DNA of 17,225 bases, from NCBI GenBank assembly GCA_002404675.1, contig DHKE01000082.1, positions 1 through 17,225 on the forward strand. The letters are read 5' to 3'. A program made the translations under genes and the position numbers. This document shows positions 3,488-17,225 of the stretch, in pieces. Origin of the DNA: Porphyromonadaceae bacterium UBA4702. Its GTDB lineage: Bacteria; Bacteroidota; Bacteroidia; Bacteroidales; Muribaculaceae. Within the stretch, counting starts at the first letter, position 1. Every line of letters starts with the position of its first letter. The notes beneath the pieces are model-generated. The model made no database searches and had not been told where the DNA came from. It saw only the letters and a program-made list of their open reading frames with translations.

Positions 3488-3988
3488 ATGAACAGCACTG
3501 GCAACGACATAGCCCTCCGCAGCCGCTTTGAGGCTTACCTCGCCTCCAAGGGAATGCGCAAGACACAGGAGCGTTTCGTGATACTCGAAGCCGCCTGTGC
3601 CATGGGCGGGCATTTCGATGCCGACACGCTGCACCGCCGCCTTGAGGCAGACACATACCATGTCAGCCTCGCCACGGTATACAACACGCTCGAGCTGCTG
3701 CGGCGTGCCGGCATTCTGGCATGCCACACGTTCAAGAGCCGCCAGTCGCAGTACGAGTTTGCAGATGCCGACGAGGGGCACATGCACCTGATCTGCTCGC
3801 AGTGCGGCAAAGTGCGCGAAGTTCCGGATCTGGAACTCTCGCAAGCCATCGCGCAACGACGCTTCGGCTCATTCTCCGCAACAAGCTTCTCGATAGAAAT
3901 CTTCGGCATCTGCGCATCGTGTGTGCGCCAGAACCGCAAGAACAAGAATAACAAAACTAATCCGCAAAACAGTAATGGCAAAAGCTGA
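3488..3988 (+). CDS. Fur-family metal-responsive transcriptional regulator
   Basis: A 166-aa DNA-binding repressor of the Fur superfamily. The winged-helix region covers residues 12-95, with the recognition helix in HVSLATVYNTLELLRRAGIL (58-77). Two structural zinc cysteine pairs are visible, C103-x2-C106 (CSQCG) and C142-x2-C145 (CASC), plus H98/H100 in the GHMHL segment, a usual metal-site region. The tail after residue 147 is rich in Lys and Asn. The frame is open back to 3323, but the promoter at 3400-3432 lies inside that extension, so 3488 is chosen. The stop overlaps purA by 14 nt, suggesting translational coupling. Whether it senses Fe, Zn, Mn or peroxide cannot be decided from the sequence. 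Confidence 0.9.
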   Translation: MNSTGNDIALRSRFEAYLASKGMRKTQERFVILEAACAMGGHFDADTLHRRLEADTYHVSLATVYNTLELLRRAGILACHTFKSRQSQYEFADADEGHMHLICSQCGKVREVPDLELSQAIAQRRFGSFSATSFSIEIFGICASCVRQNRKNKNNKTNPQNSNGKS

Positions 3989-5246
3989 TGTATTGCTCGG
4001 CCTGCAATGGGGCGATGAGGGGAAAGGCAAGATAGTGGACGTGCTCACCCCGCGCTACGATGCAGTGGCTCGCTTCCAGGGCGGCCCAAACGCCGGCCAC
4101 ACCCTCGAGTTTGAAGACAAGAAAGTAGTCCTCAGGTCACTGCCCTCGGGCATTTTCCTCTGCCGCACAAATATTATAGGCAACGGCGTGGTCCTCGACC
4201 CGGTGCTGTTCCGCCGCGAGGCAATGGAGATAGAGCAACAGGGCACAGACCTGCACGCAATACTCAAAATCTCACGCAAGACACACCTCATCCTCCCCAC
4301 GCACCGGCTGCTCGACGCTGCCAACGAGCGTGCAAAGGGAGATGCCAAAATAGGCACTACCGGCAAGGGCATCGGCCCGGCATATACCGACAAGGTGTCG
4401 CGTTACGGGCTGCGCGTGGGCGACCTCTTCTCATCGTTTGACAAAAAGTACCGCGCAGCCGTCAGTCGTCATACCGATATGCTCCGCCGAATGGGCGAGA
4501 CGCCGGATTTTGCCGACCTCGAGCGCGAATGGCTAGAAGCCGCCGAATACCTCAAAAGCTACGACATCGTGGACTCTGAGTATTTCGTCAACGACATGCT
4601 CAGCTCCGGCAAGAGCATACTCTGCGAGGGGGCGCAAGGCACGATGCTTGACGTTGACTTCGGCTCGTACCCCTTCGTCACCTCCTCCAACACCGTCTCC
4701 GCCGGAGCATGCATAGGACTGGGCATCTCACCTCACCGCATCGGCGAGGTTTACGGCATCTGCAAGGCTTACTGCACCCGCGTAGGCTCAGGGCCGTTCC
4801 CCACAGAACTGCACGACGAAACCGGCAAGCTGATGCGAGACCGCGGCCATGAGTACGGCGCTGTGACAGGACGTGAACGCCGCTGCGGCTGGATCGACCT
4901 CGTGGCTCTCAAATATGCCGTCACTATCAACGGCGTGACACGCCTCATCCTCATGAAGAGCGACGTGCTCGACACCCTCGACACGGTCAAGGCGTGCACG
5001 GCATACGAAATCGACGGCACACGCACAGACCATTTCCCCTTTGACGCTGCAGCAGAGGACATCAAGCCAGTCTATACCGAAATGCCCGGCTGGAAGACCA
5101 ACCTGACGCAGATGACCGCCCCGGAACAGTTCCCCGAGACATTCCGCAGCTACATACGCTTCATCGAGGAATACCTCGGAGTGCCGGTATACATCGTCTC
5201 CGTCGGCCCTGACCGCCTGCAGACCATCGTCTGCCGCCAGCTCTGA
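3975..5246 (+). CDS. purA: Adenylosuccinate synthetase
   Basis: Catalyses IMP + aspartate + GTP to adenylosuccinate + GDP + phosphate, the first committed step to AMP, in the cytoplasm. The 423-aa length fits the family. The N-terminus carries QWGDEGKGK (catalytic Asp14 in the P-loop) and GGPNAGHT (catalytic His42). Further on are TTGKGIGPAYTDK, the GAQGTMLDVDFGSYPFVTSSN segment, and TGRERRCGWIDL. All expected catalytic motifs are intact. An upstream ATG at 3921 in frame lies inside the Fur-family gene; MAKADVLLGLQWGDEGKGK at 3975 is the conventional start. The ATG falls within the last codons of the regulator gene. Confidence 0.97.
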   Translation: MAKADVLLGLQWGDEGKGKIVDVLTPRYDAVARFQGGPNAGHTLEFEDKKVVLRSLPSGIFLCRTNIIGNGVVLDPVLFRREAMEIEQQGTDLHAILKISRKTHLILPTHRLLDAANERAKGDAKIGTTGKGIGPAYTDKVSRYGLRVGDLFSSFDKKYRAAVSRHTDMLRRMGETPDFADLEREWLEAAEYLKSYDIVDSEYFVNDMLSSGKSILCEGAQGTMLDVDFGSYPFVTSSNTVSAGACIGLGISPHRIGEVYGICKAYCTRVGSGPFPTELHDETGKLMRDRGHEYGAVTGRERRCGWIDLVALKYAVTINGVTRLILMKSDVLDTLDTVKACTAYEIDGTRTDHFPFDAAAEDIKPVYTEMPGWKTNLTQMTAPEQFPETFRSYIRFIEEYLGVPVYIVSVGPDRLQTIVCRQL

Positions 5247-5296
5247 GGCATAATCCATCACGTAAACAACAACCTTAAATAAACAACGAAAAAACC

Positions 5297-6807: not shown

Positions 6808-7356
6808 CTACAGCAATGACGCGAGGTCGAAATACATCACGCGGGTACGCTTGTCCTCGTCATCGTTATTGAGAAACTGGTAATTGTTTTTGATGTAGAA
6901 TGGTATGGCATCAACGTATGCGTCCACAGTCACAAAGCGACACCCCGATTTATTGTCAACGACGAAATAGTCTTCGATAAATCCGAGCAGATAAGTCCCC
7001 AATGACTGATGCTGGAAAGACCGAGCTATTCCAAGCCGACCAATTTTCACGGCAGGGTAGCTTTTCAGCCTCTTCTCGTTGACAAACTTGTGCTTGCGGA
7101 AACGGTTGAACTCGGTTTTGCTCTCGAAATCAGATATTGAGACCTTGTCATTGGCAAGGCTGAAATAAGCAGCTATTTCGCCAGTCGCTTTTTCCTCCAA
7201 CACATACGATACAGACAATAAGGCTTCCCGATAAGGATTTGACTCTTTCAGCAGGAAGTCATTCAAATCCTCATCGCCGCAATCAAATGCCGCCACCGTA
7301 TCGCCCACATTGAAACGGCGAATGCGATATTTCTCTTGGCACTCTTTGAGAGTCAT
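6808..7356 (-). CDS. GNAT-family N-acetyltransferase, candidate toxin of a GNAT-type TA pair
   Basis: A 182-aa acetyl-CoA-dependent acyltransferase. The acetyl-CoA pyrophosphate loop is in IARSFQHQSLGTYLL (Q115-x-Q117-x-x-G120), a degenerate Q/R-x-x-G-x-G/A signature. PFYIKNNYQFL (Y154) matches the motif whose tyrosine is often the general acid. The opening (FNVGDTVAAFDCGDEDLNDFLLKES) resembles the F-x-CG-x-x-x-LD-x-(F/W)L start of TacT/AtaT-type toxins, which acetylate aminoacyl-tRNA. It starts 5 nt after the stop of a 50-aa gene, a spacing typical of antitoxin-toxin pairs. Toxicity is inferred from this layout; an ordinary small-molecule acetyltransferase is the alternative. Confidence 0.8.
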   Translation of the reverse strand: MTLKECQEKYRIRRFNVGDTVAAFDCGDEDLNDFLLKESNPYREALLSVSYVLEEKATGEIAAYFSLANDKVSISDFESKTEFNRFRKHKFVNEKRLKSYPAVKIGRLGIARSFQHQSLGTYLLGFIEDYFVVDNKSGCRFVTVDAYVDAIPFYIKNNYQFLNNDDEDKRTRVMYFDLASLL

Positions 7357-7361
7357 ATCCT

Positions 7362-7514
7362 TTACTTCACTAACATCTTTATGAACGTCTCATACGAGGC
7401 GCGTATCTCCGCACGCTTTTCAGGAGACACTTTCGGTGGGTTCTTCATGCGCTCCAAAAAGCGGCGAGCATCATCACCGAACAGGATCGGCGTTTCTTTA
7501 ATAGGTCTTGCCAT
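7362..7514 (-). CDS. Small 50-aa protein paired with the GNAT gene, candidate antitoxin
   Basis: The sequence begins MARPIKETPILFGDDARRF and is charged throughout, with a helical-looking C-terminal half (SPEKRAEIRASYETFIKMLV). I recognise the MARPIKETP opening from small Bacteroidales proteins found next to GNAT or toxin genes; that is memory, not a search. The open frame continues upstream to 7631, but the promoter at 7541-7570 lies in that extension. ATG 7514 is therefore chosen, leaving a leader of about 20 nt. No ribbon-helix-helix signature can be stated with confidence. Together with the GNAT gene it forms a two-gene minus-strand operon. Confidence 0.7.
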   Translation of the reverse strand: MARPIKETPILFGDDARRFLERMKNPPKVSPEKRAEIRASYETFIKMLVK

Positions 7515-7540
7515 AGCTTTGTGTGTCTTGGTTTCGATTG

Positions 7541-7570
7541 CAAAGTTACAACAATTATCTGATATACAAA
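7541..7570 (-). promoter_or_regulatory. Promoter of the small protein-GNAT pair
   Basis: On the minus strand, TTTG (7570-7567), an 18-nt spacer, then TAACTTTG(C) (7548-7540) form a near-consensus Bacteroidales promoter. Predicted initiation is around 7534. Confidence 0.65.
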
Positions 7571-7631
7571 GTTTCAGCCGATGATTCCGTGTCCCTACTG
7601 TCGCGCAAGCGTATTGGGTTCTTGCGGACAC

Positions 7632-7881: not shown

Positions 7882-9390
7882 TTACTCAGCTACAACCTCG
7901 TAGGCTGTCAGGCCTGTGCCGTTGTAGTTCGGATGCTCAACGACCTTGTAGCCCTCGCCTACGAAGTTAGCCTGCGGGTTCTCGCTGTCAGAATGTGAGG
8001 GATCGTAGCCTACGAATGTACCGCCCTTGACTATGATCTTAGCTTTACCATTATGGTAGTTTTCATCGAGGCAATTCAGCATGAACGCATACTCCTTGCC
8101 AGAATCACCTAACTGCTGAATCTCGAACACGCCGCCGCGAATTTCAAGCGTACCCTCAGATACGTACACTGCGTCGAGGTTGCCCTTGAAATGGCCGTTC
8201 TCAATTATCAGGTGCGCCCCGTTCTGCACGTCAAGCGCAAAGGTGTCATTTGCCTTGGCGAAGAAGTTGCCGTTGCCGGTGATAGTCAGCTTGCCGCCGC
8301 GAACTGAGAGAAGCGACCAATTGCCAGCACCCTCGTCCCACAGGTCAGCTGTGTTGTCAAGCGTGCTGCCGTTCATGTCGAGGACAAGGTTTGAACCGTT
8401 AGCGACGATAGTTTCGGTAGCCGTCACGTCCTTGCCGGCTGACAGCTGGCCTATCAGGTTCTCAAAGTCTGAAACCAGGTTGTACTCGCCCTCGAAGCCC
8501 GGCAGGATCTCTACCTTCACGTCGATGCCGTTGGTCAGCAGCGAGCCGTAGATGTTCGTGCGGTAGTTGCGCTGCGTCGGAACGGAGCCGAAAGTGAACG
8601 ACTGGCTCTCGTCTGTTGCGGAGTATACGGTGAACTCCATGTCGCGGACAGTCTTGGCTGACGGAACGAGGATGTAGTTCATGCCTACATACTGATACGC
8701 CTTGTCGTTGATTGTGACAGTTCCCGTGGGGAGCACGTCAGGAGCGAAAGTCACTTCCTCTGCCTCGCCTGAAGTGACACCGGTCAGCAGGTTGAGCGTG
8801 TTGGGCACGTCCTTAACCTTAAGAGAGGACTTCTGGGTGTCGAAGCCCGCGTTCTTGTTGGCGGCCAGGTCGTCAGTCAGGATGTTGATCTGAGCGAAGG
8901 GACGGCGCAGCTGCGCGCTGATGGTTGCGTCGCCGGCTACCGTGTAGTTGGTCTTGGCGCAGAAGAATGCGTCAAGAGCCTCCTGGTTGGCTGCTGTGCC
9001 ATAGTCGGCTGTTACAGTCTGTCCCTCAACGTCAAATGTGTACACAGACTCGGGAGCGTCTGCCCAGAACACGAAGTCGTAGCTCTTGCCCGTTGTCAGG
9101 CGCAGAGACAGTGTGGTCTTCAGGCCGACCATGGTGGCTGAGCCCACCTTCGGGTCGGCAGTGCCGGTGCATACCTCCAGCGGCTGCTGCTTGCCGTGCT
9201 CGTATACGGCATAAGTCAGGTGGGTAGCGGTTGTCCCCTCGCCGTAACGGGTCTGGAGGCCGTCAGGAAGTTCTACAGTCACAGCGACAACGCTCTCGTC
9301 GCCCTGGACATTCGGCATGTCCTCGCTTGAGCAGGACACCATCAGCAGCGTTGACACTGCGGCTGCTGACGCAAAAAGAATTTTCTTCAT
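7882..9390 (-). CDS. Surface lipoprotein with fimbrillin-like (DUF6562-type) domain and one beta-helix-like module (paralog A)
   Basis: 502 aa. A lipoprotein signal ends in LLMVSC (Cys20) followed by SSED, resembling the Bacteroides lipoprotein export signal that directs lipoproteins to the cell surface. Residues about 30-300 form the shared N-terminal domain: ELPDGLQTRYGEGTTATHLTYAVYE, then YDFVFWAD, RRPFAQINILT, YVGMNYILVP, VPTQRNYRTNIYGSLLTN and PGFEGEYN. I match this to the DUF6562/fimbrillin-like families from memory. Residues about 320-502 hold glycine-rich strands spaced like a right-handed parallel beta-helix (LTITGNGNF, LIIENGHFKGN, LEIRGGVFE, IIVKGGTFVGY) and end in a GYKVVEH cap. 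It is the last gene of the minus-strand operon. A structural or adhesive surface role is inferred; no catalytic residues are recognised. Confidence 0.85.
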   Translation of the reverse strand: MKKILFASAAAVSTLLMVSCSSEDMPNVQGDESVVAVTVELPDGLQTRYGEGTTATHLTYAVYEHGKQQPLEVCTGTADPKVGSATMVGLKTTLSLRLTTGKSYDFVFWADAPESVYTFDVEGQTVTADYGTAANQEALDAFFCAKTNYTVAGDATISAQLRRPFAQINILTDDLAANKNAGFDTQKSSLKVKDVPNTLNLLTGVTSGEAEEVTFAPDVLPTGTVTINDKAYQYVGMNYILVPSAKTVRDMEFTVYSATDESQSFTFGSVPTQRNYRTNIYGSLLTNGIDVKVEILPGFEGEYNLVSDFENLIGQLSAGKDVTATETIVANGSNLVLDMNGSTLDNTADLWDEGAGNWSLLSVRGGKLTITGNGNFFAKANDTFALDVQNGAHLIIENGHFKGNLDAVYVSEGTLEIRGGVFEIQQLGDSGKEYAFMLNCLDENYHNGKAKIIVKGGTFVGYDPSHSDSENPQANFVGEGYKVVEHPNYNGTGLTAYEVVAE

Positions 9391-9462: not shown

Positions 9463-9557
9463 CAGGGACACGGCGTGCCGTGTCCGCCCAAATGTCATTG
9501 CAATTCAACGACATACGCCCTCGCCGACCTTCGGACACGGCACGCCGTGTCCCTACT
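9463..9557. repeat. 95-bp inverted-repeat element, copy 1
   Basis: Two 25-bp arms in inverted orientation (9463-9487 and 9533-9557, one mismatch) flank a 45-bp centre. Each arm is itself nearly self-complementary around GGACACGGCGTGCCGTGTCC (9467-9486; the complementary version is at 9534-9553), and the outer end reads GCAGGG/CCCTAC. It lies between the stop of the 11255-9603 lipoprotein gene and the start of the 9390-7882 gene. It encodes nothing. It looks like a non-coding interspersed (REP/MITE-like) repeat. Confidence 0.88.
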
Positions 9558-9602: not shown

Positions 9603-11255
9603 TTATTCCTTTACGACCTGCCATGCCTGTTTGCCGTTGTAATCAATCTTAACGGACTTGTAGCCGTCAGCTACATAGTTGGTGTGTTCACCATCAGCGG
9701 AGTTGTCCGCAGGATTGAAGCCCACGAATATGCCGCCATAGACTTTCAGAGAGCATCTGCTTTTTTGACTATCATCAATATTCAGCAGGTACTGAGGCTT
9801 TTCCGACTCGAATACACCGCCATAAATGTTGCAATACGCTTCCTTATTGGAAGCCCCTACATAAATGCAAGGATTTGCATCCCCATTTGCGTCAACACCT
9901 ACGTGAAAATAGCCGCCATAGATGTTCGTTGTACCTCCTCTGACCAATATTGCATAATTGTTACTTTTAGAGCCGCTGCCACCGTCAAAAGTAAGGTTGC
10001 CGTAGATGTTCAGGTTGGAATTTTCAACCGCTATAGCAGCAGAGCCGATACTGCTCAATGTATTACCTATCGGACCAATGAATTTACCAGTTCCATTAAG
10101 ATTAAGTGTGCCGCCTGCATAAACGTTGATACAAGCAGACCGGTTGCTAAGAGCTGACACAGTTGCACCTTCCGATAGTGCAATGTTGACTGTATTTGCA
10201 TAGTCATCACCGACATAAATCCAGCGGTCAATGATCATATTCTCGTTGATGAGAAGGTTCAGGTTGTCATTGTTTTCCAACAAAGTCAGAAGGTCTGCCG
10301 TGTTTGTCACGACCTCGTAGTCGTAGTTGGGGTCGAAGAAGCCGGGGAGGATCTCGACGTTGAAGTTCTGCGAGCTGGTCAGCAGCGAGCCGTAGATGTT
10401 CGTGCGGTAGTTGCGCTGAACGGGCACGGTGTTGAAGTTGTAGACGTGCGTTTCGACATTCTCTGTCCCGTCTGCATAGAGGGTGAACTCCATGTCGCGA
10501 AGCGACTTCTCTGCCGGAACGAGCAGGTAGTTCATGCCGATGTAGTCGTACTTCTTGCCGTTGATTTCCATAGTGCCGGTGGGGAGCGTGTTGGCTGCGA
10601 ATGTCACTTCCGTCTCGTCGCCCGTAACTGTGCCGTCCATCAGGTTAAGGCCTGTGGCAACGGTCGTCTTGAGCGAAGAGTTCGCGGGAACGAAACCGCC
10701 GTTATCGGCAGCCTTGAGGTCGTCGGTGACGATGTTCACTTGCGCAAAGGGACGGTAGAGCTGTGCGCTGATAGTAGCGTTGCCGCTTACCTTGTATGTC
10801 TTCGCGCAGTAGAATGCGTCGAGAGCCTCCTGGTTGGCGGCTGTGCCGTTGTCAGTAGCGTTATATTCGGCTGTCACCACCTGATGTTCTGCGTCAAAGC
10901 GGTAAACAGACTCTTCAGCGTCTGCCCAGAACACCATGTCGTATTCCTGGCCGCTGGCGAGCTGCAGGCTCAGCGTTGTGCTGCGGTTGATTGTGGCAAG
11001 GCCTTCTGTGGCGTTCTTGTCAGTGCCGTTTATGCAGACAGGCAGCGGCTTTTTCGTGCCTTTTGCGTATACTGCGTAGTGAAGGCGTGTTGCGGTCTCG
11101 CCCTCGCCGTAACGGGTCTGGAGACCGTCGGGGAGCTGCACGGAGACTGCAACAGTAGCAACGTCGCCGTTCTCGGGAGCGGGCATGTCGTCGTTTGAGC
11201 AGGAAGCCAGCATCAATGAGGCTGCTGCCATTGAGAGGAAATATATCTTCTTCAT
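9603..11255 (-). CDS. Surface lipoprotein with fimbrillin-like domain and a different beta-helix-like module (paralog B)
   Basis: 550 aa. The signal MKKIYFLSMAAASLMLASC puts the lipid-modified Cys at 19, followed by SNDD (surface-export-like). The N-terminal domain (about 30-305) parallels paralog A, with LPDGLQTRYGEGETATRLHYAVY, YDMVFWAD, YRPFAQVNIVTDDL, YIGMNYLLVP, VPVQRNYRTNIYGSLLTS and PGFFDPNYDYE. The C-terminal part (about 320-550) has asparagine- and glycine-rich strands (LNLNGTGKFIG, LNIYGNLTFDGG, TNIYGGYFHVGVDANGD, CNIYGGVFESE, LKVYGGIFVGF) and a GYKSVKIDYNGKQAWQVVKE end cap. It corresponds to module 2 of paralog C, not to the module in paralog A. The frame extends upstream to 11408 only because it runs through the 95-bp repeat; 11255 is the start with a proper signal peptide. 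Confidence 0.86.
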   Translation of the reverse strand: MKKIYFLSMAAASLMLASCSNDDMPAPENGDVATVAVSVQLPDGLQTRYGEGETATRLHYAVYAKGTKKPLPVCINGTDKNATEGLATINRSTTLSLQLASGQEYDMVFWADAEESVYRFDAEHQVVTAEYNATDNGTAANQEALDAFYCAKTYKVSGNATISAQLYRPFAQVNIVTDDLKAADNGGFVPANSSLKTTVATGLNLMDGTVTGDETEVTFAANTLPTGTMEINGKKYDYIGMNYLLVPAEKSLRDMEFTLYADGTENVETHVYNFNTVPVQRNYRTNIYGSLLTSSQNFNVEILPGFFDPNYDYEVVTNTADLLTLLENNDNLNLLINENMIIDRWIYVGDDYANTVNIALSEGATVSALSNRSACINVYAGGTLNLNGTGKFIGPIGNTLSSIGSAAIAVENSNLNIYGNLTFDGGSGSKSNNYAILVRGGTTNIYGGYFHVGVDANGDANPCIYVGASNKEAYCNIYGGVFESEKPQYLLNIDDSQKSRCSLKVYGGIFVGFNPADNSADGEHTNYVADGYKSVKIDYNGKQAWQVVKE

Positions 11256-11355: not shown

Positions 11356-11450
11356 GTAGGGACACGGCGTGCCGTGTCCGCACCGATATATTGCAGCAAA
11401 TCAAACAATTGCGTTTACCGCTCGGCGGACACGGCACGCCGTGTCCCTAC
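11356..11450. repeat. 95-bp inverted-repeat element, copy 2
   Basis: Same length and architecture as the copy at 9463. Perfect 25-bp inverted arms (11356-11380 and 11426-11450) begin GTAGGGACACGG and end in CCCTAC, with a 45-bp centre that is only loosely similar to copy 1 (shared ATTGCA and ATTCAA/AATCAA stretches). It ends 6 bp before the stop of the 13655-11457 lipoprotein gene and precedes the 11255 gene by about 100 bp. Confidence 0.9.
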
Positions 11451-11456
11451 TCAAAA

Positions 11457-13655
11457 TTACTCCTTAACTACAGTCCAGGCCTTCTTGCCGTTGTACGTCG
11501 TCTCTACTGACTTGTAGCCGGCCTTTACAAATGAGGTAATGTCACCTTCATTTACATGTGAAGGATCAAAGCCTACAAATGTACCGCCAGTAATTTCCAC
11601 AGTACATCTCTTGCGGTCTGAATCATACAGATTTATCAAATATGTCGCATCACCGTCGCACTCGAATACGCCGCCATTGATATAAAGCTTCACATATTGA
11701 CGATATGCAGGAGCCAAATATATCACCTCGCTCGACCCTCCATTCACATCATTGCCAGAATGGAAATATCCGCCATTAATGGTAAGCGAACCCTTCACCA
11801 GCTTAACAGCATAGTTACCTGTGCTGCCGCTGCCGCCGTCAAAGGTATTGTTGCCATTGATGACCAGGTTGCCTCCTTGCACTGTAATGGCTGAAGTCCA
11901 AGTAGTCCCAATGGTTCTTGCAGAAACACGACCGCCCTCACCATTGATTGTCAGCGTGCCTTTGCCGACAAAAATTGTTTCCTGAACTTTTTTCTCACTG
12001 AAGCCTCCTTTGATTTCACCGCCAGCTGCAAGTGTGAGAGTAGATGTGGTTTTAGATGACAGATGTGTGTCTACAATAGGAATGGTGTAATCAACCGGGT
12101 TCTTAAGGATTGAAGACATGGCATTGTCAGACTTCATCACCTCGTAAGTCTCGGGGCTGCTGCTTGTCTTGACAGATACATAGCCTGGGGCTACGAAGTT
12201 GGTATGTGCGCCTTCGGCTGCGCAGTCTGCCGGGTTGAAGCCGATGAACTTGCCGCCTGTGACGATGATATGTGCCTTGCCTTCCTTGTATGCAGCATCG
12301 ATGCAGTTAAGGAAGTATGCGTCGGGATTCCAGTGCTGAAGCAACTCGAATGTGCCGCCCTTGATTTCGGCAGTGCCTTCTTGTACCTGAATGACACTGA
12401 CATTGCCATAGAAATGCCCGTCTTCGATTATCAGGTGGCTTCCGCCTTTAACATTGATGCCGTAGCAGTCTTCTGCCTTGGGCTTCAGAGTGCCGTTGCC
12501 GTTGATTGTCAGAGTTGTTCCGTCCTCAAGGCTCAGCAGTGCGTTTCCGCTCTCGTCCCAAATATCATCTTTGTTGGCGATAGTCTTGCCGTTGAGGTTA
12601 AGGCTTACAGTATGTCCGCCTGTGATCTTCATCATTTGCGTCGGCTCGAGGTCTTTCACGAGAGCCACATCCTTGCCTGCTGAAAGGTCTGCGACCATTT
12701 TGTATACGTCAGCTGCGTAGTTGTAGATGCCGTCGAAGTCGGGGACGATCTCAACCTGCACGTTCACGGCGTTGGTCAGGATCGAGCCGAAGATGTTCGT
12801 GCGGTAGTTGCGCTGCACGGGCACGGTGTTGAACGTGTGGCTGATGGGTGCGCCGTTGCCGGTAACAGTCAGATTCACGTCAACGAGCGACTTGTCTGCG
12901 CCTGTCAGCACGTAGTTCATTGCCAGGTAATCGTAGCTTGTGCCAGCTGACGTGGGGAATGTCTCGCCCTCTGGGAGAGCCTTGGCTGCAAATTTGGTAG
13001 CAACAGGCTCGTTAACCGTGCCGTCCTCAAGGTCGAGTGAAGTTGACACGGGGACTGTCACCTCGGCTGTTGCGGCTGTGAAGCCGGCCTTGGACGCTGC
13101 TTCGAGGTCGTCTGTGCCTATGTTGAGCTGCGCGAAGGGGCGGCGCAGCTGGATGGTCTGAGTGCCGTCGCCCTCGACGGTGAATGTCTGGTATGCGTAG
13201 AATGCGTCGAGGTTCTCGTCGCTTGTAGTGAAGCCTGTATAGTCGGCCGTTACCTTATGGTTCTCTGCGTCGTATGTATAGGGAGAGGCGCTTCCGGCGT
13301 CAGACCAGCAGATGACTGCGTATTTCTTGCCGGTAACGAGCTTGACGGGGACGTTGGTCGTCAGCGAGTTCTCGGCAAATGTAGTGGTGTAGACAGTTTT
13401 TGTGCCGTCATCAAACACGGCGAGGTTACCGCCCTTGATGCCGCTGTCGCCGGCCTCGCAGACTACCATCTGCAGGTTCTTGGCTGTCGTGCCGTCGCCG
13501 AAGGCGCGGGTCTGGAGAGACGCGGGAAGCGTTGCCGTCAGGGTGACCGTCGCGTCACCTGTCTGGATGTCGATGTCGTCATTCGAGCATGAGGGCAGCA
13601 GCATCGCTGCACTTGCCGTCAGAGCGAACATGGATAGGTAATTGATCTTTTTCAT
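11457..13655 (-). CDS. Large surface lipoprotein with fimbrillin-like domain and two beta-helix-like modules (paralog C)
   Basis: 732 aa. The lipobox LLPSC (Cys23) is followed by SNDDID, an acidic surface-export-like stretch. The N-terminal domain (about 30-307) has LPASLQTRAFGDGTTAKNLQMVV, YAVICWSD, RRPFAQLNIGTDDLEAA, YLAMNYVLT, VPVQRNYRTNIFGSILTN and PDFDGIYN. Module 1 (about 320-515) parallels the C-terminus of paralog A, with LTINGNGTL, LIIEDGHFYGN, AEIKGGTFEL, IIVTGGKFIGFNPADC and a GYVSVKT cap. Module 2 (about 530-732) parallels paralog B, with LVINGNNTFDGGSGS, LTINGGYFHSGNDVNGG, LYINGGVFECD, VEITGGTFVGF and a GYKSVETTYNGKKAWTVVKE cap. It is preceded by a 62-bp gap after the shorter fimbrillin-like lipoprotein gene and is probably in its operon. 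Confidence 0.86.
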   Translation of the reverse strand: MKKINYLSMFALTASAAMLLPSCSNDDIDIQTGDATVTLTATLPASLQTRAFGDGTTAKNLQMVVCEAGDSGIKGGNLAVFDDGTKTVYTTTFAENSLTTNVPVKLVTGKKYAVICWSDAGSASPYTYDAENHKVTADYTGFTTSDENLDAFYAYQTFTVEGDGTQTIQLRRPFAQLNIGTDDLEAASKAGFTAATAEVTVPVSTSLDLEDGTVNEPVATKFAAKALPEGETFPTSAGTSYDYLAMNYVLTGADKSLVDVNLTVTGNGAPISHTFNTVPVQRNYRTNIFGSILTNAVNVQVEIVPDFDGIYNYAADVYKMVADLSAGKDVALVKDLEPTQMMKITGGHTVSLNLNGKTIANKDDIWDESGNALLSLEDGTTLTINGNGTLKPKAEDCYGINVKGGSHLIIEDGHFYGNVSVIQVQEGTAEIKGGTFELLQHWNPDAYFLNCIDAAYKEGKAHIIVTGGKFIGFNPADCAAEGAHTNFVAPGYVSVKTSSSPETYEVMKSDNAMSSILKNPVDYTIPIVDTHLSSKTTSTLTLAAGGEIKGGFSEKKVQETIFVGKGTLTINGEGGRVSARTIGTTWTSAITVQGGNLVINGNNTFDGGSGSTGNYAVKLVKGSLTINGGYFHSGNDVNGGSSEVIYLAPAYRQYVKLYINGGVFECDGDATYLINLYDSDRKRCTVEITGGTFVGFDPSHVNEGDITSFVKAGYKSVETTYNGKKAWTVVKE

Positions 13656-13717: not shown

Positions 13718-14791
13718 TCATTTGTACTCGTAGTTGTACTCGCCCTCGAACCCGGGGTCGATGCCGACGCCGCCCTGGGCAAGCACCGACAGGAACTGCC
13801 CGCGCACTATCGTCACTTTGTTGCGCACCAGCGGAACGTCTACCGGGTAGCTGCGCGACAGCAGCGTCCCCTGGCGGTCGTACACCTCTACGGACACCGT
13901 GACCGTCGACTCGTGGCCGTTGACGAACACGTAGTCGTAGCCCAGCTCGACGTTGTCATCGTCTATCTGCCTCATCTCGCCCTCGAATGTCAATCCCGTC
14001 CATGCGTCGGCAGGGCGGTTGGTGAACATGTTAAACGAGCAGGGCACGAACCCGCTGTAGCGGAACACCACGCGGAAGTCGCCGGCGTTGATGCGGCTGG
14101 CCACGTTCTCCGGGTCGTCGGAACGCAGCACCTCGGTGAGGAACTTCACCACGTCGTTGCTGATGAACTTGAACTTGGCCAGCGGACGCTCCATGTCAAC
14201 ATGGACGCGCGTCACGCCGTCCTCGCTCGCCGTGGGGATGTCCGCAGCCTTCTCGCCCCGGAACGCATCGCGCAGGTCGGTGTTGCCCACGTAATGGTCG
14301 CGGCTCGTCAGGATGACCTCCTCAAAGTTGGAGCTGTCGTAGTACAGGTCGTCGGTCTTGCCGTGCTCCACGTAGTCTGCCCACACCAGGAAGTTGTACT
14401 TGCCCGGCGGCAGCTCCAGGCGCACCGTGTGGTTCAGGTCCGTCAGGTCGCTCTTGGTGACGACTGTAGAGCTTACTGCCACGCGGCTCGTGCGGCTGTC
14501 GCGGCTGCGGCTGCCGTCCTCCACCAGCGGATAGGCGTTGACCACGTAGCGTATGTCGTAGCCCTGGCCGCCGTCGCGAGACAGGTAGTCTATCGTCTTG
14601 TAGAAGTCCATGTCGTAGGAGCCGGTGAAGTCCAGCTCAAGGTACACTTCCTCGGTCAGGTCCTCGTCCTCGGGGAACTCGTGCACGCCGCACGAAGTGG
14701 CTGCGGCGAGCAGGGCCACAGCACAGAGCATCATGGCGGCGCAGCGCCCCCAAGCCCGGTATATTGCATACATTGTCGCTGCCATGGTCAT
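13718..14791 (-). CDS. Fimbrillin-like/DUF6562-like lipoprotein without beta-helix extension (FimB/Mfa2-like position)
   Basis: 357 aa. A hydrophobic signal with lipobox AAATSC (Cys34), then GVHEFPEDEDLTEE. The remainder is one beta-rich region carrying the hallmarks of the N-terminal domain of the neighbouring paralogs: YNFLVWADYVEHG, DMERPLAKFKFISND, GYDYVFVNG and VPLVRNKVTIVRGQFLS. It ends exactly at IDPGFEGEYNYEYK, the point where the larger paralogs continue into their beta-helix. The start at 14791 overlaps the DUF3575 stop by 4 nt (ATGA), and the upstream TGGAGGAAATGA contains a strong Shine-Dalgarno, unusual for this phylum. An upstream ATG at 14857 lies inside the DUF3575 gene. Anchor or minor subunit of a fimbria-like structure is inferred from context. 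Confidence 0.8.
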   Translation of the reverse strand: MTMAATMYAIYRAWGRCAAMMLCAVALLAAATSCGVHEFPEDEDLTEEVYLELDFTGSYDMDFYKTIDYLSRDGGQGYDIRYVVNAYPLVEDGSRSRDSRTSRVAVSSTVVTKSDLTDLNHTVRLELPPGKYNFLVWADYVEHGKTDDLYYDSSNFEEVILTSRDHYVGNTDLRDAFRGEKAADIPTASEDGVTRVHVDMERPLAKFKFISNDVVKFLTEVLRSDDPENVASRINAGDFRVVFRYSGFVPCSFNMFTNRPADAWTGLTFEGEMRQIDDDNVELGYDYVFVNGHESTVTVSVEVYDRQGTLLSRSYPVDVPLVRNKVTIVRGQFLSVLAQGGVGIDPGFEGEYNYEYK

Positions 14792-15525
14792 TTCCTCCAG
14801 TCTTTGATGTTGAACATGTACGAGAATGTCACAGAGAGCTGGTCGATGCCGAACCACGCCTTCTTGCGCGAGTAGAGCAGCGGCCCGTTGTGCCGGTTCT
14901 CAAACTTGTCGTAGTCGAGCGAGTACACGCCCAGGCCCAGCGAGAACTCGACCTTCCACGGGCTGCCCTTGCGCAGCGGCATCCGCCAGCCGGCGTTCAA
15001 GCCGCCGCCGAAGGCCGGCCGGCCCCCGTTGCGGTCCTGCGTCCGGACCTTGCCGTCAAAGGCGTAGTTGTACCACGCAAGCCCGACGTGCGCCCCGGCG
15101 TACCACCCGTCGTCGCTGCCCCCCCACCAGTAACGGTATTCCGGGAGGACAGCGAGCATACGGAATTTGAGTGTCGACTTGAAGTAGTTCCACGCCGAGT
15201 AGTACACCGGCACCACGACCGACATGTTCGGGCGCACGGTCAGCTCCCCCTGCACGTTGGCCAGCAGGAGCGTCCACGCCAGCACGTCGCTCTTGACATA
15301 CACGTGGCGCTGCCAGTCGTCATTAAGAGGCAGGTTGAGAGCCTCGTTGCGGGTGAGTGTGTCGCCCTGCGCCGTGATGACATACTTGACCTCCTCGCCG
15401 TCTGGGAGCAGTTCCTCCGACGGCAGCCGCCGGGGCGTTTCGCTTCTCTCTTGCGCAACAGCGGAAGAGAAAGCCATGCCGAGCGACATCGTTATTATTG
15501 CTATATGTCTAATATTCAAGTACAT
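14788..15525 (-). CDS. DUF3575 family outer-membrane protein, first gene of the operon
   Basis: 245 aa. A signal peptide (MYLNIRHIAIITMSLGMAFS, cleavage near SAVAQ) is followed by a periplasmic stretch and then a C-terminal beta-barrel-like region with alternating aromatic strands (VVVPVYYSAWNYF, LAVLPEYRYWWGG, WYAGAHVGLAWYNYAFDGK, FGGGLNAGWRMPL, VEFSLGLGVYSLDYDKF, LSVTFSYMFNI). This matches the DUF3575 family as I know it, which in Bacteroidales commonly heads fimbrillin operons. It overlaps the next gene by 4 nt. Its start lies 17 bp from the nearest inverted repeat of the putative switch. In the present orientation I see no promoter facing it. Confidence 0.85.
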   Translation of the reverse strand: MYLNIRHIAIITMSLGMAFSSAVAQERSETPRRLPSEELLPDGEEVKYVITAQGDTLTRNEALNLPLNDDWQRHVYVKSDVLAWTLLLANVQGELTVRPNMSVVVPVYYSAWNYFKSTLKFRMLAVLPEYRYWWGGSDDGWYAGAHVGLAWYNYAFDGKVRTQDRNGGRPAFGGGLNAGWRMPLRKGSPWKVEFSLGLGVYSLDYDKFENRHNGPLLYSRKKAWFGIDQLSVTFSYMFNIKDWRK

Positions 15526-15542: not shown

Positions 15543-15565
15543 ATTTCTCTTTGTAAGAGAAGTTA
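15543..15565 (+). repeat. Left 23-bp inverted repeat of the switch
   Basis: The core TTCTCTTTGTAAGAGAA is itself an inverted repeat. Arms ATTTCTC and GAGAAGT flank a 7-bp centre TTTGTAA, the general shape of a tyrosine-recombinase crossover site. It matches the right copy over 23 bp without mismatch. Confidence 0.92.
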
Positions 15566-15701
15566 CACTTTCAACTGTCTGTTTATCAGCGAGATGTCTG
15601 TTTTGATGCAAGGCGTTGGCTCTTCACATCGCAGCAGTCTTAAATCTGTTAGTAGCAAAAATCGGCACTCGGAAATATTCACACCAAAAATTTCACCTTT
15701 T

Positions 15702-15734
15702 CTTGCCCATTTGCTGGAAAAGAAGTAACTTTGC
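15702..15734 (+). promoter_or_regulatory. Promoter inside the invertible segment
   Basis: CTTG (15702-15705), a 20-nt spacer and TAACTTTG(C) (15726-15734). This has the same -7 box and spacer as the promoter in front of the nucleoside phosphorylase gene in this window. Predicted initiation is about 15739, just before the right inverted repeat. Confidence 0.72.
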
Positions 15735-15742
15735 GGCGTAGA

Positions 15743-15765
15743 TAACTTCTCTTACAAAGAGAAAT
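15743..15765 (-). repeat. Right 23-bp inverted repeat of the switch
   Basis: Exact reverse complement of 15543-15565, with its core reading TTCTCTTACAAAGAGAA on the + strand. Flanking bases on both sides differ from the left copy, so the repeat boundaries are well defined. Confidence 0.92.
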
Positions 15766-15880
15766 CGCGAGTACCTGCTGCCAAAATCGCATCCCGTTCT
15801 GGTTTTCAATGCAGAGCCGCACCCGTAAATGGTGCGCCTCCACATTGAGTGTCTCTTGTTATTCTGATGTTATCAGCAGC

Positions 15881-15916
15881 CGGGGAGGCGGCACGGCGTG
15901 CCAGGCCTCCTCCCCG
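15881..15916. terminator. GC-rich hairpin after the truncated lipoprotein gene, possible terminator
   Basis: CGGGGAGG (15881-15888) pairs with CCTCCCCG (15909-15916), and inside is a second palindrome GGCACG-G-CGTGCC (15890-15902). It lies 12 nt after the stop of the 17225-15929 gene. Neither strand has a T-run, so it is not a standard intrinsic terminator. The inner CACGGCGTGCC matches the core of the 95-bp repeats and may be a relic of one. Confidence 0.35.
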
Positions 15917-15928
15917 ACCGGGATCGGG

Positions 15929-17225
15929 TTATGCAGGCACGACCTCAAAGGCAGTCTTGCCGTTGTAGGTGGTCTGGTTGAACTTGTAGCCGGACTTCAG
16001 GTACTTGGCATCAGGCTGGCTGCCTACGAATATGCCGCCGGAAATCTCGAATGCAACTTTAGCCTTCTTGTTGGCGGGGTCGTTGTATACCAGTTGATTG
16101 CTGTATTCAAACACGCCGCCCTGTATATACACCTTGAGTTCTTTTGTGCCGTACATATATCCGATTTCAAACAATCCGGAGTCGCTTCTCGTATCGGTAG
16201 TATTGAAGTGGCCGCCCTTGACTGTCACAGTGCTTTCCCTCATACAGAAGACCGGGCCTTGGCTCACATACGTGTTGTTGCCTTCTATTGTGAGGGCAGA
16301 ACCGCAGGACATATTGAACAGAGAAGGTCTCCAGGAACTCGAACTTGTTGCAGAAATCACGCCGTCCTGGCCGCTGACAGTGCAGTTTTGAGCCTTTCCA
16401 GAAGTGGTGCCAAAATAAAATACGCTACTTGTGTCTGTTCCTCTGATTTCACCGCCGGCAGCCATTGTTATTCTGCTGTCGGCCGCGTCGGCTGCGGGCT
16501 GCAAGTGAACATTCTTCAATGCGAGGACATAGTCAATGGTCGTGCCGAACACTTCGGAGTAGTCATTGTAGAAGCCCGCTTTCTTCACTACGAAGTGATC
16601 CTTGCCGTCAGTGCTGGGCACTTTGACGGAAACGTAGCCTTCTGCCACGAAGTTGGTATGTGCGCCCTCGGCGTTGCAGTCTGCCGGGTTGAAGTTGATG
16701 AACTCGCCGCCCTTGACAGTGATCTTGGCAGTGCCGTTCTTGTAGTTGTCATCGTAGCAGTTGAGGACGTAGTCTTTGACCCAGTCTGTAGAGTTTGTCA
16801 GCTGCTCGAAGCGTCCGCCGCGGATTTCAGCCTCGCCGGAGAACACGTACACCACATGGTCGTTGCCGTAGAAGTTGCCGTCCTCGATGATGAGCTTGCC
16901 GCCCTCCTGAACGTCAAACGCGAAGGCGTCGTCTACCTGGGCAACCGGCGTGACTGTGCCGTTGCCGGAGACGGTCAGCTCGCCGCGTACAGAGAACATC
17001 GACCATTTGTCGCCGTTGCTGAAGTCTGCTATCGGGCCTGAAGCGGAGTAGGTCTTGCCGTTGAGGTCGAGGATGTTGCCCTTGCCGCGTATTACCATCG
17101 TCTTGTCGGCAGTCATGTCTTCGGTAAGGTGGATGTACGCGCCGTCGAAATCAGGCTCGATAACCACATTGAAATTCTGGGAGCTGGTCAGGAGCGAGCC
17201 GAAGATGTTGGTGCGGTAGTTGCGC
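15929..17225 (-). CDS. Surface lipoprotein paralog with two beta-helix-like modules, 5' end beyond the window (paralog D)
   Basis: About 432 aa are visible and the frame runs off the right edge. The first visible residues, RNYRTNIFGSLLTSSQNFN then PDFDGAY, are the end of the same N-terminal domain as in the other paralogs, so the missing part should hold a signal peptide and roughly 280 residues. Module 1 has LTVSGNGTV, LIIEDGNFYGN, AEIRGGRFEQL, ITVKGGEFINFNPADC and a GYVSVKV cap. Module 2 has ITMAAGGEIRGT, LTIEGNNTY, VTVKGGHFN, VYIQGGVFEYS, FEISGGIFVG and a GYKFNQTTYNGKTAFEVVPA cap. The layout equals paralog C. It lies upstream of the switch in transcription order, so it has its own promoter or belongs to another unit. 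Confidence 0.86.
   Translation of the reverse strand, partial: RNYRTNIFGSLLTSSQNFNVVIEPDFDGAYIHLTEDMTADKTMVIRGKGNILDLNGKTYSASGPIADFSNGDKWSMFSVRGELTVSGNGTVTPVAQVDDAFAFDVQEGGKLIIEDGNFYGNDHVVYVFSGEAEIRGGRFEQLTNSTDWVKDYVLNCYDDNYKNGTAKITVKGGEFINFNPADCNAEGAHTNFVAEGYVSVKVPSTDGKDHFVVKKAGFYNDYSEVFGTTIDYVLALKNVHLQPAADAADSRITMAAGGEIRGTDTSSVFYFGTTSGKAQNCTVSGQDGVISATSSSSWRPSLFNMSCGSALTIEGNNTYVSQGPVFCMRESTVTVKGGHFNTTDTRSDSGLFEIGYMYGTKELKVYIQGGVFEYSNQLVYNDPANKKAKVAFEISGGIFVGSQPDAKYLKSGYKFNQTTYNGKTAFEVVPA

Follow-up and report, generated by a model that had tools for sequence, protein, structure and literature searches.

Between the DUF3575-led gene cluster and the 3' end of a further fimbrillin-like gene, the 17,225-nt stretch of DNA analyzed here (the window) carries an inverted repeat with a promoter inside it, which raises the question of whether this segment switches the cluster and, if so, which enzyme turns it. 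The answer that we hold with high confidence is that positions 15543 to 15765 form a site-specific invertible promoter, flipped by a tyrosine recombinase encoded elsewhere and switching the cluster of DUF3575, anchor, and fimbrillin genes (Table 1). This reading draws its support from conserved cores, spacer-matched partner sites, a fixed promoter geometry, and tyrosine recombinases adjacent to the sites in some relatives, as well as from the occurrence of both orientations among relatives and from two alternative junctions of one flank in the assembly of one relative.

Table 1. Positions of the switch elements, the DUF3575 cluster, and its neighbors in the window
Feature	Position	Strand	Details
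Operon-side arm	15543..15565	+	core TCTCT-TTGTA-AGAGA at 15546-15560
Invertible inner segment	15566..15742	.	177 bp; 42% GC versus 55% for the window
Bacteroidales-type promoter	15703..15733	+	TTG (-33) at 15703-15705, N20, TAACTTTG (-7) at 15726-15733
Distal arm	15743..15765	-	core at 15748-15762
Gene 1, DUF3575 protein	14788..15525	-	Pfam 4.5e-29; first gene of the switched cluster
Gene 2, DUF6562/Mfa2-like anchor lipoprotein	13718..14857	-	ORF limits; start more likely near 14773
Gene 3, DUF6562 fimbrillin-like lipoprotein	11457..13655	-	ORF and Pfam
Gene 4, DUF6562 fimbrillin-like lipoprotein	9603..11255	-	Pfam; start taken as the MKKIYFLSM methionine
Gene 5, DUF6562 fimbrillin-like lipoprotein	7882..9390	-	ORF and Pfam
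Hairpin	15877..15920	-	immediately after the upstream gene ends; may be a terminator, though a clear T run is missing
Further fimbrillin-like gene, 3' part	15929..17224	-	leaves the window; 3' end faces the segment

An earlier note on this DNA had described perfect 23-bp inverted repeats around 177 bp, and this description holds exactly: the two 23-nt arms are 100% complementary and lie 177 nt apart. When the window was shuffled 60 times with its dinucleotides preserved, perfect inverted repeats spaced 50 to 600 nt apart reached at most 14 nt, and the maximum was 12 nt when the local 500 bp were shuffled 500 times. Absent from the earlier note is the internal structure of the arms, both of which are near-palindromes with the core TCTCT-N5-AGAGA, extended on the inner side. 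The window presents the inverted repeat pair around a promoter-bearing segment that defines an inverton, and its half-sites enclose an asymmetric spacer that matches between the two partners, as in Tsr-type switches.

A search for TTG-N19-21-TAnnTTTG inside the segment returns a single match, on the plus strand and pointing away from the operon, in agreement with the lone, outward-directed promoter proposed before; the end of its -7 box lies 14 nt from the core. When the segment is reflected, this box falls on the minus strand at 15575 to 15582 and lies 49 nt upstream of the ATG (15525), which confirms the leader of about 50 nt that had been calculated, and inversion would thus bring a -33/-7 promoter to the gene start as in other invertons, as judged by consensus match and position only. 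Since only 17 bp separate the arm (15543) from this ATG, a fixed promoter next to the DUF3575 gene does not fit. That the assembly captured the OFF state follows from the sequence, the promoter facing away, although it is possible that read-through from the partial fimbrillin-like gene upstream expresses the operon even in this state. A related reading, in which the segment is a relic or locked and the operon is silent or read through from the upstream gene, we consider unlikely. The upstream gene is indeed codirectional with the operon, no canonical T-run terminator was found in the gap behind it, and the 17 kb hold no recognized recombinase; yet the arms have kept all 23 nt identical and their asymmetric spacers match, the promoter box and its 14-nt spacing are intact, and a strong hairpin (-39.5 kcal/mol for 91 nt, z -3.6) stands behind the upstream gene.

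The same arrangement is found in relatives. Inverted core pairs precede the operon in 4 of the 15 DUF3575 loci on genome contigs (L002, L003, L004, and L008), and no such pair was seen in the other 11. Together with the window and three further core pairs of one genome (L036, L039, and L040 of G004), these make a set of eight in which the position of the promoter can be compared. In six of the eight, the distance from the end of a perfect TAnnTTTG to the core is 14 nt (15 nt in L040), L003 has a 5-of-6 box with one mismatch at 15 nt, and no recognizable box was seen in the L002 pair. Shuffled inner segments show this box geometry in 4 to 10 of 2,000 cases. Among 393 Bacteroidales genomes, the pattern of core, 13 to 15 nt, and box yields 31 matches in 14 genomes, compared with 2 for a reversed-pattern control.

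Of these pattern loci, 30 were fetched; in 21 of them, the core is matched by an inverted partner whose spacer is reverse-complementary, at a distance of 141 to 207 nt in twenty and 1,105 nt in one. The partner search tolerated at most two mismatches in the 15-mer; 18 of the 21 partners show none and 3 show one, located outside the spacer. Of the nine partnerless loci, four run into a contig end on their inner side (L088, L089, L096, and L098), one has its match in an inverted core at a distance of 7.2 kb, close to the opposite contig end (L091), and four lack a partner core although the contig continues (L078, L081, L084, and L095). Contig C64 of genome G008 carries spacer-matched inverted cores at 234 and 7430, 7.2 kb apart and near both contig ends, the second of which has a box; the two may perhaps bound a longer segment that inverts, or the assembly may have broken at a switch.

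The more general site TCTCTTNNNAAGAGA occurs 68 times in 11 of 12 genomes that were picked because such sites had already been seen there (none in G249), with 9 matches for the reversed-pattern control. Twenty-two neighboring pairs of these sites lie within 1 kb of each other, 20 of them with reverse-complementary spacers, for which the chance expectation is 1 in 64, and 2 in direct orientation. Pairs of one genome mostly differ in spacer, with four different spacers in G251, so recombination between loci would be limited; two pairs of G042 (on C15 and C18) have a common spacer. A further contig of G042, C27, holds identical-spacer cores in direct orientation at 16318 and 16508, an arrangement that would give excision, not inversion.

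Comparison of orientation between related genomes, one of the checks suggested beforehand, gave both states. Eight box-bearing switches are linked to DUF3575, counting the window; two promoters face the operon (L004 and L102) and six face away (the window, L003, L008, L040, L100, and L101), with the DUF3575 assignment of L003 resting on a tblastn match and that of L040, which is cut by a contig end, on a 53% match to the L004 protein in its N-terminal part. Pfam confirmed the domain for the window, L002, L004, L008, L100 (as L070), L101 (as L079), and L102. L002, being boxless, is counted with neither orientation. At L101 (2493 to 2748) and L102 (7466 to 7704), we observe three cores per switch, the extra copy lying on the operon side. 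At L008, an open reading frame composed of repeated helix-turn-helix motifs (3790 to 5271) separates the invertible promoter from the DUF3575 operon.

Alternative junctions were found in genome G377, at a locus different from that of the window. Contigs C23 and C24 are identical over 5,032 nt (all of C23 that was fetched) through the core, and past the core they continue into two different 62-nt inner ends, where each contig stops. A third contig, C25, joins another flank to the inner end of C24; the fourth junction was not found in this genome. Judging from the contig sequences, a population in which both orientations coexist would leave such junctions in an assembly. The same junctions may also stem from duplicated cassettes or from two strains merged into one metagenome-assembled genome. 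Shared contig ends alone (C24 with C25, C26 with C53) could reflect duplicated cassettes, and the C23/C24 divergence is the stronger evidence.

Two further readings of the repeat are weakened by these comparisons. It is very unlikely that the arms serve as an operator or RNA hairpin and not as recombination sites: in the predicted leader, each palindromic arm could fold into a hairpin of 7 bp, but this would leave unexplained the spacer pairing of distant arms, the mixed orientations, the adjacent recombinases, and the G377 junctions. An assembly artifact is scarcely credible; the window comes from a single assembly, in which the printed orientation between inverted repeats can be arbitrary, but the same architecture is present in many genomes and such an error could alter only the orientation as printed.

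With the segment read as an invertible promoter, there remains the question of the enzyme. No recombinase was recognized in the window, either among its open reading frames or by Pfam on 15 proteins, and the enzyme would therefore act from elsewhere. In relatives, a tyrosine recombinase gene (Phage_int_SAM_5 and Phage_integrase by Pfam, the Phage_integrase match of L003 being below its cut-off) lies directly beside the repeat at L003 and L008. At L100, a 58% relative of the L008 enzyme is encoded about 370 nt from the repeat, and relatives of the L008 enzyme adjoin cores in G410, G123, G395, and G377. The R, RH, GH, and Y positions appear conserved by eye in an alignment of 11 recombinases. 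The earlier note had left the choice between serine and tyrosine recombinases undecided; Pfam matches of the adjacent enzymes and the conserved positions favor the tyrosine type. A spacer of about 5 nt is also a better fit for strand exchange by tyrosine recombinases, serine invertases exchanging strands over 2 bp. That the segment is invertible by a serine invertase of the Mpi/Hin type is quite unlikely: the window leaves room for it in that no enzyme is recognized there, and B. fragilis Mpi, a serine recombinase, is described as inverting 13 regions (PMC4747536), but the recombinases recognized beside this class of core in the relatives named above are of the tyrosine type. A resolvase-like open reading frame was seen by eye at L009, a locus without the core.

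The listed recombinase matches of G002 and G004 are on contigs other than the one that carries the DUF3575 switch, as would be required of an enzyme acting in trans. All 14 genomes searched contain matches to the L008 enzyme (E<=0.001), many of these matches being distant. At E<=1e-70, a recombinase match is present in all 11 genomes examined of the 14 that have the site pattern and also in 6 of 11 that lack it, so presence of the enzyme does not predict the sites; in two of these six, the core or part of it stands beside the enzyme (L126 and L138). An NCBIfam scan of eight recombinases from relatives returned only Xer/integrase-type models below cut-off and provided no name.

Inverted repeats just past the 3' end of the recombinase gene were seen at L054, L055, L056, L057, L058, and L062, and none was seen there at L059, L060, and L061. 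The TCTCT core is missing from the repeats of L055, L056, and L062 and is variant in L058, and 30 further recombinase loci show a similar mixture of repeats. Behind these recombinase-side repeats are found DUF3575 (L058), a SrfB-family gene (L056), and a RibD_C gene (L055). At L057 (8895 to 9082), a 24-bp inverted repeat of the same core class leads from the tyrosine recombinase to ClpB-like and VgrG-like genes of type VI secretion system (T6SS) type, possibly a phase-variable T6SS. At L054 (8905 to 9095), an inverted repeat lies between a tyrosine recombinase and a gene set with an Eco57I-type methylase and ResIII, possibly a phase-variable restriction-modification or defense system.

From this comparative evidence, we infer the following course of events for the window copy. 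A tyrosine recombinase supplied from elsewhere in the genome would bind the conserved AGAGAAGTT-like half-sites of both arms, and strand exchange in the asymmetric spacer (TTGTA/TACAA) would turn the 177-bp segment around. In the ON state, the promoter would drive the cluster of DUF3575, anchor, and fimbrillin genes; provided that the transcript begins 7 nt beyond the box, its leader would measure about 43 nt. In the OFF state, the one assembled, it would fire toward the 3' end of the neighboring fimbrillin-like gene.

The first gene under this predicted control encodes a protein whose N-terminal helix resembles a signal peptide by eye, followed by a predicted outer-membrane-type beta-barrel (AlphaFold, mean pLDDT 79.6); a fold search gave weak matches to generic OmpW/NspA-like barrels, none at E<=0.001. 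Metagenome relatives of this protein include one at 98% (P0001), whose cluster comprises 68 member sequences. Among 295 genomes of the order, the nearest DUF1015 protein is 82% identical (G035), and in the family of that genome (nine genomes) three have a DUF3575 match at E<=1e-45, with 41 to 49% identity; in the G306 family (nine genomes), there was no DUF3575 match at E<=1e-50. The product of gene 2 matches DUF6562 (7.5e-94) and Mfa2 (PF08842, 1.7e-07, above its cut-off), and a PDB sequence search with it returned nothing credible (best E, 0.44). A lipobox is visible by eye in genes 2 to 5. The combination of a Mfa2/FimB-type anchor with lipoprotein pilins, as seen by Pfam and, for the lipobox, by eye, is that of a type V pilus operon, and the gene set fits type V pili, which suggests a fimbrial role. 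The 412-aa part of the upstream fimbrillin-like gene gave no Pfam match, and its RNYRTNIFGSLLT stretch resembles genes 3 to 5 by eye.

Of the proposal that five genes are switched ON and OFF as an operon, the invertible promoter is supported by the relatives, and a single transcript of genes 1 to 5 is no more than plausible, strong hairpins occupying two of the gaps (-70.3 kcal/mol after gene 3 and -81.6 kcal/mol after gene 4, z -9.1 and -6.9). REP-doublet-like structures are observed at 9464 to 9556 (after gene 4) and 11356 to 11450 (after gene 3), consisting of inverted 23- to 26-bp palindromic repeats 43 to 45 nt apart that form very strong hairpins. The REP-like palindrome of the window was found in 0 of 16 relatives.

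Phase variation of a fimbria-related locus has a precedent in B. fragilis, reportedly that of Weinacht et al. 2004 and with a reported involvement of tyrosine recombinases. This phase-variable adherent/aggregative locus is cited in PMC12632263 (reference 116), and its likeness to the window lies in the phase variation of fimbria-related proteins of the outer surface, in a different organism. Also described are the switches of the B. fragilis tyrosine recombinase Tsr19/BF2766, which inverts IVp-I and IVp-II, local and distant TAnnTTTG promoters (PMC4747536). As is proposed for the window, a tyrosine recombinase there flips a TAnnTTTG promoter before surface-structure operons, and extra repeat copies can intervene before the gene, an arrangement also seen in L101 and L102; the three-core switches of these two loci recall the extra repeats that tune expression of B. 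fragilis EPS (PMC4747536). Tsr19 serves EPS and outer-membrane protein operons (PMC4747536), whereas the window has a DUF3575/DUF6562 fimbrial cluster. Among the invertons of the hCom2 community, groups 112, 122, and 137 are described as having fimbrillin-family genes in a regulatable position, site-specific integrases are enriched near group 137, and the FimB/Mfa2 family is predicted to be up in surface-attached cultures (PMC11892184); the likeness to the window is that of invertons beside fimbrillin-family genes. The type V pili of P. gingivalis (FimA/Mfa) likewise combine lipoprotein pilins with a Mfa2-type anchor (PMC12632263), but the pilin-like proteins of the window differ from them in carrying DUF6562 and C termini that look like a beta-helix by eye, and their polymerization is putative. 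The relatives differ in turn: the second gene encodes DUF3868 in L100 to L102 versus DUF6562 in the window, and the DUF3575 operons of L100 and L101 include Fimbrillin_C, with a FimA domain in L101.

Both promoter inversion by tyrosine recombinases and phase-variable fimbria-related loci are thus already known, and the window locus is a new instance, by which the DUF3575/DUF6562 fimbrial cluster would join the phase-variable surface structures of gut Bacteroidales. For a shared core with per-locus spacers, no description was found in the literature searched, which covered passages of PMC4747536, PMC11892184, and PMC12632263. The core, spacer, and 14-nt box spacing form a compact, searchable signature for such switches and for their pairing with a recombinase clade, and the signature extends to relatives with T6SS-like and restriction-modification-like genes behind similar repeats. 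More tentatively, and with slightly less than even confidence, we propose that one tyrosine-recombinase clade serves promoter switches genome-wide, through common half-sites and an approximately fixed 14-nt geometry, with the spacers acting as addresses that leave the loci mostly unjoined. If so, one enzyme would flip many loci: those of fimbriae and perhaps also, in relatives, those of T6SS, restriction-modification, and further surface genes.

Outside the cluster, we observe at 6808 to 7631 of the window a GNAT-like protein (Pfam matches below cut-off) beside an 89-aa open reading frame, an arrangement that we take to be like that of GNAT toxin-antitoxin pairs.
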